A stretch of DNA of 64,000 nucleotides, taken from positions 27,215,068-27,279,067 of the forward strand of contig NC_090952.1 of NCBI RefSeq assembly GCF_040807025.1. The letters run 5' to 3'. Of this stretch, positions 19,293-32,031 are shown piece by piece. The position numbers and the translations under genes were made by a program. This DNA is from Struthio camelus (taxonomy: Eukaryota > Chordata > Aves > Struthioniformes > Struthionidae). Every line of letters starts with the position of its first letter. Within the stretch, counting starts at the first letter, position 1. The notes under the pieces are model-generated. The model searched no databases, was not told the origin of the DNA, and saw only the letters and a list, made by a program, of their open reading frames with translations.

Positions 19293-20408
19293 TCAAGAGA
19301 TGGACTCTAACAAAAGCTCAGCTGGTGGCATCGGAGGAATTTCCATACTATTTATTCGACCAAAGAATTTTGGAAGGGACCAAAATTTGAAACGTGGAAA
19401 ACTTTGTTTTTTCATATGAATATTGTCGCTGGTCTCCCTAACAGAGAGGCTGCTCCCTTTGCGTGCAAACCAAGACCTCAGGGCAGCATGGCTGTGTCGC
19501 AGCAATTGGTCCTGAAACTCGGATGTCATGAAGTAGTAGAGGACTGGATCCAAGCAGCAGTTCAGGCTCGCGAGGCAGAGGGAGATGGGGTGGAAGCGGA
19601 GCGTGCTCCTGTGAATGGCACAGTCTTTGATGATGTTCTCTATTACCATCATAAATAACGGGAAGTTGATGTGGTATGGGGTGAAGCATATGAAGAACAC
19701 AGCAGCGCACATTAACACCATTCGCAAAGCTTTCTGCTTCTCACTGGCATTTTGCAGCTCCGTTTGACATTCCTGCAAGGACTGCCTCATCTTCCACGTG
19801 CAACAGGCAATGATACCCAAGGGGATCACAAACCCAAATAGCTCCGCAACTGTCACCAAAGCGATAGAGGCTCCTGGTGTCATTTGCTTCACACCTAGGT
19901 CGGAAAAGCATGTGTTTGTGGTGTTGGATAAGGCCGGGCTCCTCACAATGGGCAGCGGTAAGCAAGCTGCCCCCACGAACAGCCACACCGCGGCGCTGAT
20001 GGCCGCGTCGTACCTCCGCTTCCAGTCCTTCGCCTTGAACGGGTGGAGAAGGAAGAGGTACCTCTGGATGCTGATGCAGGTGAGGAAGCAAATGCTCGCG
20101 TACATGTTGAGATACTTCAGGTAGAAACACACCTGGCAAAGAAAGCTTCCAAAAGGCCACGTATGGTTTATATAGTAATACATTCGTAAAGGCAGTGAGA
20201 GAACGTGAGCCAGGTCGGCCACGGCCAGATTGATCATGAAAATCACAGCTTTGCTCTTCTTGCTGATGAAGCGACATAAAACCCACAAGGCAGCACTGTT
20301 TGCCAGAAGCCCGGGTATGAATATGATGGTGTAAGTGGTTGCATACAGGGTGGACTGAAAGGACATCTGGGGATCAGTACAGTTTCCAGAGGACATGTTG
20401 GTCTCCAT
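19293..20408 (-). CDS. P2Y purinoceptor 10-like receptor (tandem paralogue of P2RY10)
   Basis: A 371-aa class A G-protein-coupled receptor in one uninterrupted coding exon. Seven membrane segments are readable. TM1 contains N37 (1.50), TM2 has LAVAD with D65, and C91 likely bonds to C167 in the second extracellular loop. TM3 ends in IQRY (114-117) instead of DRY, TM4 has W142, TM6 has CFTPYH with P244, and TM7 has DPVLY (287-291). N-glycosylation sequons are at N4, N9, N81 and N162. The closest family I recognise is P2RY10, a lysophosphatidylserine receptor of lymphocytes reported to couple to G12/13. The C-terminal tail (about 76 aa) is far longer than in P2RY10 (about 30 aa), is rich in basic and aromatic residues, and ends in LESIS. 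The start has a strong context (G at -3, G at +4) and lies 48 nt inside the exon. The gene could be the bird counterpart of mammalian P2RY10B/LPS2L or an independent duplicate. Confidence 0.93.
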   Translation of the reverse strand: METNMSSGNCTDPQMSFQSTLYATTYTIIFIPGLLANSAALWVLCRFISKKSKAVIFMINLAVADLAHVLSLPLRMYYYINHTWPFGSFLCQVCFYLKYLNMYASICFLTCISIQRYLFLLHPFKAKDWKRRYDAAISAAVWLFVGAACLPLPIVRSPALSNTTNTCFSDLGVKQMTPGASIALVTVAELFGFVIPLGIIACCTWKMRQSLQECQTELQNASEKQKALRMVLMCAAVFFICFTPYHINFPLFMMVIENIIKDCAIHRSTLRFHPISLCLASLNCCLDPVLYYFMTSEFQDQLLRHSHAALRSWFARKGSSLSVRETSDNIHMKKQSFPRFKFWSLPKFFGRINSMEIPPMPPAELLLESIS

Positions 20409-20456: not shown

Positions 20457-20458
20457 CT
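20457..20458 (-). other. 3' splice site before the paralogue's coding exon
   Basis: Reading the minus strand, TTTTTTCTCCCTACAG is followed by AAACCC, a good polypyrimidine tract plus CAG acceptor. The coding exon therefore starts at 20456 and has 48 nt of 5' UTR before the ATG. The same junction sequence occurs in front of the second receptor gene, which supports both as real splice sites and dates them before the duplication. Confidence 0.75.
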
Positions 20459-22019
20459 GTAGGGAGAAAAAACAGATGCTGTAAAGCCAAAAACTTCTCA
20501 ATATTTTCCCACATTGAATAAATGCGCTTCAGTACAGAAACCTAAGTTTTAAGTGAGATGGCTCATAGTGTCGATGCATTTAGATTACAGTGTTCTCACG
20601 GAAGGGTCTGCCCCCCCCATGGGTATTTCTGTGCAGCAAACTGTCCAGTCGGCCACAACTGGACCTCAAGTGTTTGACCTCACTGGAACAATGAACTGGT
20701 GTATTGCTGCATTGCCCTGTAGTCTGCTGCTTCTTACGCCCTCGGATGATCCTCGAGGACTATGGTGCTGTAGACAGTATACGTACGTATCTATCTCTCA
20801 AAAGAGAGATAGCAAGAAACAGATAAGCGGTTTACTCCCTTAAGAAACAGATCGAACTTAGTCAAAGAGGACCGAAAGTTCTCTTAACGCGGGCCGGTGG
20901 CCTGGTGTGGGGTGTCGTGACCCTGTGTACATCCCGGCCGTAGTACGTCCAAAAAATCTGCATCATCTTTCCTGTCTGTCGTTCTGAACTCAGAAGCACA
21001 GAAGCACCAGCCAGGTAGAGCCTCCACCCTGGAAGGGACTGAGCTAGTGTTGACCTACAGAAATGTTATATTTCTTTTATATAGGGGTGCATGTGTATAC
21101 GGCTAGAGAGCACGTGCGCGTTGGGCTTGGTGGCATCTCCCAGGCAGCTCGGAGCAGGTTTAGTCCGTGCGAGGGCGGCTGGCGATCCTGCTCTCCCGCA
21201 CCCTCGTGCGCTGATAAGAGCACAGAGGCTGCAGTCATGCTCCGGATCATCCACCTGCAATTTTCTGTCAAACTCCTGTGAAACTGGTGCCTCTGGCACG
21301 TCTACAGGTGATTCAGGTGGGACCATAAATAACACAAGCTCAGAGCGCACTGAGACGTTGCCCGTTCGGAGCTGAGCAGAGGTCCGATGTGAACCGGCGG
21401 CAAGGGCAGTAATCACCATCAGTAACGGTGGTGCTGGCCGGCAGCAGGCTGGAGCGGGGGCCGGTGATGGAGAGGTGCAGACGGCTTTATCAGCGCTCTG
21501 GCTCCAGATTTGAGAGGGGATTTAAAAACTAATAGCTGGCTGAACACACACAGCCTATCTGTCAGTACTGCTAACTCAATTTCTGTACTCATGGCACATT
21601 ACGCAGGCATCGTGTTGTAGCAACAGAAATTATCTTCCAGCAACAACTCAGGACATGAAGGAAGATAAATACATTTGTCTGTTAGTTAGACCAGAAATTC
21701 ATTTCATCCGTTTACCCTTTTCACCTCCTATCATCAATGCTGAGGGTACCTGCGGGTCTTGTGTAGTTCACGGGCGCTCGCTCAGGTCTCCAAGAGGTAA
21801 TGAATTCAATGCATTTCACTATTCCTGAGCAAAGCCCGCAGGGCAACTCCGCTTTTTGGGTAGCGATGATTACGCACGTGGCAGGCTGCAAAACCAGGCA
21901 GCGTCTGTAGCAGCGCTTGGGACAAAACAGTGCTGGGCTTTTTTGGTGGTGAGGTGCCAGAAGTGTGGTCTGTAAGCGACCGCAAGGTGTCAGACGGCCG
22001 GTGGCCTTGGGCATCCTCC
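20459..22019. other. Intron/upstream region of the paralogue, no gene seen
   Basis: The first 60 or so bases upstream of the acceptor still resemble the matching intron of the other receptor (shared CTGTAAAG-type words). Beyond that I see no coding sequence. It holds a short perfect hairpin at 20779-20812. Confidence 0.5.
20779..20812. repeat. Two adjacent short palindromes (ATACGTACGTAT and a 9-bp hairpin)
   Basis: The 12-bp palindrome ATACGTACGTAT (779-790 in this kilobase) is directly followed by CTATCTCTC, a four-A loop, then GAGAGATAG, a perfect 9-bp stem. It lies about 325-350 bp upstream of the paralogue's splice acceptor. Confidence 0.8.
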
Positions 22020-31004: not shown

Positions 31005-32027
31005 TCATTCCTTAATCGATGAGGCGCTTTCTTTGCTCATGAGCCGACTCCTGATGACCATGCTGCTATGCCTTGATATCTGATCCTGAAAGTCTGAAGT
31101 CATGAAGAAATACAGGATTGGATCCAAACAGCAGTCCAGACTTGCAAGACTTAAGCAAAAGGGTTGTGTGTAAAGAGTGATTGTACGTAAGGAACAGTCT
31201 GTAATAACATTTTCTTTCACCATCATGTAGAAAAAGAAGTTGATGTGGTACGGTGCAAAACACACAAAGAACACAATGGCGCACATGGAAACCATCCGTA
31301 AAGCTTTCTGCCTCTCGCTGCTGTTTTGCAGCGGTATCTGGAATCCCCGAAGGGAATCTTTTGTTTTCAAAGTGCAGAATAAAATAATAACAAGAGGGCC
31401 CACGAACCCAAATAGCTCCGCCGTCGTTGTCATCAGCACCGTGGCCACCTTGCTGTTGATCTGCCGGACTTCGAGGTCTGCAAAGCAGGTATTTGTACTG
31501 TTGGCTAGGCCGTAGTTTCGCATGATGGGAAACGGTGAGCAAGCTGCCCCCACGAACAGCCACACCACGGCGCTGATGGCCAGGTCGTACCGCCGCTTCC
31601 AGTCCTTAGCTTTGAATGGCTGGTACAGGAAGAGGTACCTCTGGATGCTGATGCAGGTGAGGAAGCAAATGCTCGCGTACATGTTGAGATACTTCAGGTA
31701 GAAACACAGTAAGCAAAGGAACCTCCCAAAAGGCCATGTGTGGTTAGTATAGTAGTATATTCGCAGTGGCAGTGAGAGAACGTGAGCCAGGTCGGCCATG
31801 GCCAGATTGATCATGAAAATCACAGCTTTGTTCTTCTTGCTGATGAAGCGACATAAAACCCACAAGGCAGCACTGTTTGCCAGAAGCCCGGGTATGAATA
31901 TGATGGTGTAAGTGGTTGCATACAAGCTATATTTAAACGTTATAACAGGATCAGGACAAGTTCTGTTGCTCTGCATCGTGACAGGGCTGCTGGAAATGTT
32001 TGGCACAAGGTAGGATGGACAGGACAT
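31005..32027 (-). CDS. P2RY10: P2RY10, lysophosphatidylserine receptor (putative P2Y purinoceptor 10)
   Basis: A 340-aa class A receptor in one coding exon, matching the usual P2RY10 length. N51 marks TM1, D79 TM2, C105-C181 the conserved disulfide, IQRY (128-131) replaces DRY at the end of TM3, W156 TM4, P259 in CFAPYH TM6, and DPILY (302-306) TM7. Sequons are at N10, N21, N95 and N176. The tail contains SRLMSKES, which I recognise from the C-terminus of mammalian P2RY10, so this copy is the better orthologue. P2RY10 is known as a lysophosphatidylserine receptor on lymphocytes acting through G12/13. The open frame extends upstream to an ATG at 32084, but that stretch is intron: a strong acceptor ends at 32030, so I chose the ATG at 32027, two bases into the exon. 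This gives an N-terminus close in length to the mammalian one. Confidence 0.95.
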   Translation of the reverse strand: MSCPSYLVPNISSSPVTMQSNRTCPDPVITFKYSLYATTYTIIFIPGLLANSAALWVLCRFISKKNKAVIFMINLAMADLAHVLSLPLRIYYYTNHTWPFGRFLCLLCFYLKYLNMYASICFLTCISIQRYLFLYQPFKAKDWKRRYDLAISAVVWLFVGAACSPFPIMRNYGLANSTNTCFADLEVRQINSKVATVLMTTTAELFGFVGPLVIILFCTLKTKDSLRGFQIPLQNSSERQKALRMVSMCAIVFFVCFAPYHINFFFYMMVKENVITDCSLRTITLYTQPFCLSLASLDCCLDPILYFFMTSDFQDQISRHSSMVIRSRLMSKESASSIKE

Positions 32028-32029
32028 TT

Positions 32030-32031
32030 CT
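32030..32031 (-). other. 3' splice site immediately before the P2RY10 start codon
   Basis: On the minus strand TTTTTATTCCCTACAG is followed by AA and then ATG. The exon therefore begins two bases before the start codon, and the -3 base of the start context comes from the unseen upstream exon. The junction matches that of the paralogue at 20457. Confidence 0.8.

Follow-up and report, generated by a model that had tools for sequence, protein, structure and literature searches.

The window analysed here is a stretch of 64,000 nucleotides from Struthio camelus (contig NC_090952.1), which corresponds to C11:27215068-27279067 of its own genome. The list of open reading frames contains two intact single-exon receptor genes, referred to here as A and B, both on the minus strand, which stand in tandem in the same orientation about 11.6 kb apart (Table 1). 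The open frame of gene B extends to 32084, into the presumed intron. Among solved structures, the best match of gene A is the P2Y10 chain 8kgg_R (E 8.9e-136; 455.9 bits vs 342.3 bits for GPR174), and gene B matches the same chain at E 2e-140 (470.9 bits vs 317 bits for GPR174); both receptors are nearer to P2Y10 than to GPR174 among these structures. The P2Y10 chain of 8kgg is presumably human. A genome search covering 1.45 Gb in 262 contigs, with 110 candidates scored, found A and B once each, the match of gene A being identical. Gene A is adjoined by a separate gene of GPR174 type, so named from its likeness to a PDB chain, whose start extends into positions 1-56 of the window. Beyond B and outside the window lies an LPAR4-type gene, which we take to be LPAR4.

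Table 1. Features of receptor genes A and B in the window. Segments are named after the favoured conversion reading; residue positions in A and B are transferred from GPR174 numbering.
Feature	Positions	Strand	Remarks
Receptor gene A, P2RY10-type, coding exon	19293..20408	-	371 aa, intact ORF
Homogenised region in gene A	19961..20347	-	codons about 22-150, 1.35 to 4.58, TM1 to TM4; neutral divergence about 0.19
Partly homogenised 3' edge	19961..20049	-	partner 31538-31626; 11/89 bp, 5/24 silent codons differ
Presumed converted block 2 in gene A	20050..20131	-	partner 31627-31708; 0/82 bp differ
Presumed unconverted patch	20132..20190	-	partner 31709-31767; 16/59 bp, 7/15 silent codons differ
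Presumed converted block 1 in gene A	20191..20347	-	partner 31768-31924; 2/157 bp, 0/47 silent codons differ
Splice-acceptor-like sequence of gene A	20458..20475	-	related gene B sequence ends at 32030
Receptor gene B, P2RY10-type, coding exon	31005..32027	-	probably 340 aa from ATG at 32027
Partner region in gene B	31538..31924	-	ungapped partner of 19961-20347

Upstream of the coding exons, the flanks of A and B are similar only across 55 bp near the acceptor (78% identity, E 2e-5), where the local alignment score is 33, whereas 300 shuffles reach 21 at most; the remaining matches between corresponding flanks have E 0.02 or worse. The start ATG of B at 32027 lies just inside this splice-acceptor-like stretch that it has in common with A. 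The shared stretch suggests, from its likeness to an acceptor, a duplication of DNA that carried an intron.

The preliminary description of this DNA had proposed gene conversion between the two receptors, on the grounds that 387 bp align without gaps at about 29 differences. The codon alignment of 19961-20347 with 31538-31924 gives 29/387 differences and no gaps, and two blocks described as identical, 20255-20347 (93 bp) and 20050-20131 (82 bp), are both so. The reported contrast in protein was also recovered, with 12/129 residues differing in the tract and 75/175 aligned residues after it, where there is a one-residue gap, and a three-segment change-point fit given no prior coordinates placed the edges at 20347 and 19961, as had been claimed. 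The statement that silent changes are absent is right for the blocks (0/47 and 0/25 codons) but not for the whole half, in which 12/111 silent-comparable codons differ; these differences sit between the blocks (7/15 codons) and at 20049-19961 (5/24). On both sides the tract is bounded by diverged homologous sequence, with 32/63 coding bp differing upstream and 191/525 bp downstream. Such a closed tract is neither a plain recent duplication nor the product of a single crossover.

Synonymous divergence along the codon alignment had been proposed as a check, and both the counts in 20-codon windows and a codon model fitted by region find it strongly non-uniform. Between A and B, 12/111 silent codons differ in the tract against 49/95 downstream (Fisher P 1.2e-10). 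With separate selection strengths allowed, the codon model places neutral divergence at 0.19 in the tract vs 2.3 after it, the latter value being saturated with a lower bound of about 1.6. Forcing one neutral divergence value on both regions costs a likelihood ratio of 61.6, and in 300 simulations under one age, with transition bias held fixed, the ratio reached a maximum of 12.6 and lay below 3.2 in 95%. Uniformity was likewise rejected by a GENECONV-like permutation, run with our own script rather than the GENECONV program, in which silent codons were shuffled within degeneracy classes 20,000 times: the longest run of identical silent codons is 47, another is 27, and P for the whole gene is as low as this number of permutations allows, 5e-5. 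Taken by itself, the remainder of the gene gives no silent clustering (P 0.78 for the longest run, 0.40 for the sum of squares).

These analyses support conversion, but not the single even tract of the earlier proposal; change-point and permutation results point instead to at least two homogenised blocks around an unconverted patch. Six segments gave the best BIC (1007.9; three 1016.2, four 1011.3, five 1009.7, seven 1011.2), a gain of 8 over three segments, with boundaries that are chosen from the data and with fits of five or four segments lying within 2 to 4 units. The six-segment fit places 20347-20191 (2/157), 20190-20132 (16/59), 20131-20050 (0/82) and 20049-19956 (12/94) between diverged ends. 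Estimated on codon stretches nearly equal to these segments, dS is near zero in block 1 (upper bound about 0.05), 1.3 in the patch (0.58-4.4), 0.06 in block 2 (up to 0.26) and 0.26 in the 3' edge (0.08-0.71), single estimates that lean towards contrast because the patch edges were picked from the data. The patch covers the top of TM2, the first extracellular loop and the top of TM3 (2.58 to 3.27), and its silent share of 7/15 resembles the rest of the gene. Inside the tract, silent matches are clustered (P 0.003 for the sum of squares, 0.010 for the longest run). Read most simply, the patch was spared either by two or more conversion events or by a single one whose repair was patchy; the 3' edge is read as older or patchy conversion. 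As a separate observation, gene A has a GC3 of 0.90-1.00 at 20108-19989, in the surroundings of block 2, and a lower GC3 elsewhere; GC-biased conversion or a local codon bias could account for this.

At the protein level, A and B differ at 12/129 residues of the tract, about half of the 25/129 that separate each of them from the P2Y10 chain. Beyond it, the differences number 72/170 between A and B, 69/169 between A and the P2Y10 chain and 63/169 between B and the P2Y10 chain, so that in this part the distance between A and B is no smaller than the distance to a mammalian P2Y10. The A/B duplication is old. By eye, A matches the P2Y10 chain at 5 of the 12 tract differences, B at 5, and neither at 2, which singles out neither copy as the donor. 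Four-taxon protein trees of A, B and the PDB chains of P2Y10 and GPR174 left all topologies acceptable for both halves (AU p at least 0.117); grouping A with B was favoured by 0.36 log units in the tract, and grouping B with P2Y10 by 0.92 after it, neither being significant.

What lies at the locus is a local loss of silent divergence which has diverged sequence at both ends and a mosaic structure, and which does not occur between A or B and the neighbours GPR174 and LPAR4. Interlocus gene conversion between A and B, with or without the mosaic reading, is very probably its cause. An account that dispenses with conversion would invoke a uniform age, the TM1-TM4 half of the protein being under strong purifying selection. 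This half is also the more conserved one against the P2Y10 chain (25/129 vs 63-69/169), but silent sites reject one age, block 1 differing at 0/47 silent codons against 49/95 after the tract, and we give this account almost no credence. Mixing of reads from A and B into one consensus would be an artefact of assembly, and similar copies close together are the classical place for it. However, A and B each have a single place in the genome searches, the window contains zero N, and the identical stretches are short islands split by 16/59 bp differences rather than patches of read length, which makes an artefact extremely improbable. Within conversion, and overlapping the main reading, a single event of about 390 bp might have been followed by fast change of the first extracellular loop at 20132-20190. 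The patch does hold 5/12 of the tract's residue differences, at an extracellular loop; its 7/15 differing silent codons are nevertheless not expected from selection on residues, and the clustering inside the tract (P 0.003) also speaks against one event with later change, which we hold to be unlikely.

It may also be that silent sites are themselves constrained here, by a hidden reading frame, a splicing or regulatory element, or codon bias. Silent constraint in TM1-TM4 would show in other pairs, and other receptor pairs were therefore compared. When the GPR174 gene of this genome is the partner, silent codons in the tract differ at 42/72 for A and likewise at 42/72 for B, and those after it at 47/73 and 39/60 respectively, so that tract and rest are about alike for both; block 1 by itself gives 21/29 with either receptor. 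Silent differences have also been able to accumulate in the patch, which lies within the same stretch, and this too argues against constraint on silent sites. Block 2 has a lower silent divergence from GPR174 (7/19), with very high GC3 that may lower silent change, and codon bias may add a little to the identity of this block. Across 28 pairs of eight genes, A-B has a differing silent share of 0.11 in the tract, and each of the other 27 has at least 0.39; tract and rest vary in several pairs with no common direction, as in B against one further gene (L006, 17/43 vs 20/32) and A against another (L008, 33/44 vs 22/45). The run test was extended to 33 other pairs within clusters, drawn from A, B, GPR174, LPAR4 and a further 20 genes, which were taken by closeness from the 110 genome matches and all gave an ORF, that of L020 being only 269 aa. 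The longest identical silent run was 3 to 8 codons in 30/33 of these pairs, which have 28-52% amino acid identity against 69% for A-B; lower identity makes long runs less likely, and the 30 pairs are accordingly a background for old clustered receptors and not for equally alike pairs. The three exceptions, each of at least 60% amino acid identity, have runs of 17 (a pair at C1:165.6 Mb, P 0.005), 170 (a CCR-type pair, P 0.0005) and 355 (a pair without any difference). Constraint on the silent sites is, taken together, very improbable as the source of the pattern.

Under interlocus gene conversion, A and B would be an old tandem P2RY10-type pair in which short coding stretches of TM1-TM4 were homogenised, a break in one copy probably having been repaired from the neighbouring copy as template. 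The same orientation, the distance of 11.6 kb and the short, closed, patchy coding tracts fit break repair from the other copy. Conversion would probably have acted two or more times, or a single time with patchy repair, and the old divergence would have been retained at the N-terminus, in the second half and in the upstream flank. Constraint on the protein in TM1-TM4 may have left the DNA of that part alone similar enough for strand invasion. Functional differences between the receptors may lead selection to disfavour conversion in the second half; alternatively, the second half may be too diverged for strand invasion. Beyond the bird genome, a search for relatives gave zero pattern matches in viral contigs, and 17 pattern matches in prokaryote contigs, none of which was a relative by tblastn.

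Passages of PMC9950150, in which human GPR174 was studied, describe seven head-group contacts as conserved in LysoPS receptors: R2.60, Y2.64, Y3.33, R4.64, F in ECL2, Y6.51 and K6.62. Gene B keeps 7/7 of them and gene A 6/7, Lys6.62 being replaced by Ile256; the hydrophobic contact Phe4.60 is Leu152 in A. Both of these changes in A fall in the unconverted half. In the converted half, the contacts 1.35, 1.39, 2.60, 2.64, 3.32, 3.33 and 3.37, whose positions were checked, are identical in A and B, and 2.60 and 2.64 fall inside the unconverted patch. The C-tail of A is longer and its own, and the tail of B has a motif in common with P2Y10. These differences would be compatible with a shifted ligand response of receptor A. 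A more far-reaching proposal is concerted evolution of half a receptor, in which TM1-TM4 is repeatedly homogenised and selection bars conversion of ECL2-TM7 and the tail, receptor A having turned to another ligand or coupling, with the loss of Lys6.62, the change of Phe4.60 to Leu and the long C-tail as its marks; we regard this proposal as possible but rather doubtful.

Conversion between neighbouring receptor genes has precedents. CCR2 and CCR5 of mammals are neighbouring genes with much gene conversion, as described in PMC6168169; like A and B, they encode class A receptors of immune cells and lie next to each other, and they are the precedent. In gibbons and other catarrhines, the L/M opsin genes undergo conversion that is checked by selection, according to PMC3213168 and PMC3924837; here too, parts of tandem receptors are homogenised while functionally different parts remain apart. 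Introns of the opsins are homogenised and central exons protected, whereas in A-B the homogenisation affects coding blocks, and the upstream flanks resemble each other only close to the acceptor. Segmental homogenisation has also been reported for the mammalian pairs BMP8A/B, DDX19A/B and TUBG1/2, duplicated more than 100 million years ago (PMC2720389), which resemble A-B as old pairs with long-lasting segmental homogenisation. The screen behind that report demanded a similar intron, and intron similarity of that kind was not found in A-B. P2RY10 and P2RY10B, a local P2RY10-type duplicate like the present one, are described in passages of PMC6504862 as a mammal-specific duplication, and the A-B pair is therefore likely of separate or older origin. 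Our literature search, outside which most subscription journals lie, found, among the papers listed, none on gene conversion of P2RY10-type receptors and none joining the chicken free fatty acid receptor with gene conversion. A and B are, as read here, a further example of the known conversion between adjacent receptor genes.

Because segments of these genes differ in history, analyses of P2RY10-type receptors that are based on the whole CDS would be misled in this lineage, whether they build gene trees, call orthology or estimate dates. The A-B pair offers a clean case of conversion between copies that are otherwise saturated at silent sites. Data from several species could reveal whether constraint on the protein is enough by itself to preserve the DNA similarity that conversion needs, and which parts of the receptors selection keeps apart.

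Several other receptor pairs of the same genome came to light. L033 and L034 (C2:50.375 and 50.392 Mb) are a tandem CCR-type pair with 85% amino acid identity and the run of 170 identical silent codons; the best solved-structure matches of L034 are CCR5 and CCR2. A run of this length is as expected, since conversion of CCR2/CCR5 is known, and we read the pair as a second, stronger case of conversion or partial duplication. It is much more alike throughout, whereas the silent sites of A-B are saturated after the tract. The tandem receptor pair L031/L032 (C1:165.63 and 165.65 Mb, 60% amino acid identity), with its silent run of 17 (P 0.005), possibly carries a further short conversion tract. L036 and L037 (C2:52.470 on the plus and 52.481 on the minus strand) are chemokine-receptor-like, in opposite orientation, and identical over 2212 bp, with one edge of the identity inside the fetched stretches and the other beyond them; a very young inverted duplication, a palindrome under conversion and an assembly artefact are the alternatives. 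Finally, L016 and L017 on contigs C40 and C41 (70.4 and 89.9 Mb) belong to the same receptor cluster, which is 99.7% identical between the two contigs over 9.86 kb. The assembly therefore seems to contain one chromosome in both of its copies, and the shared cluster is perhaps part of a shared Z/W region as in ratites.
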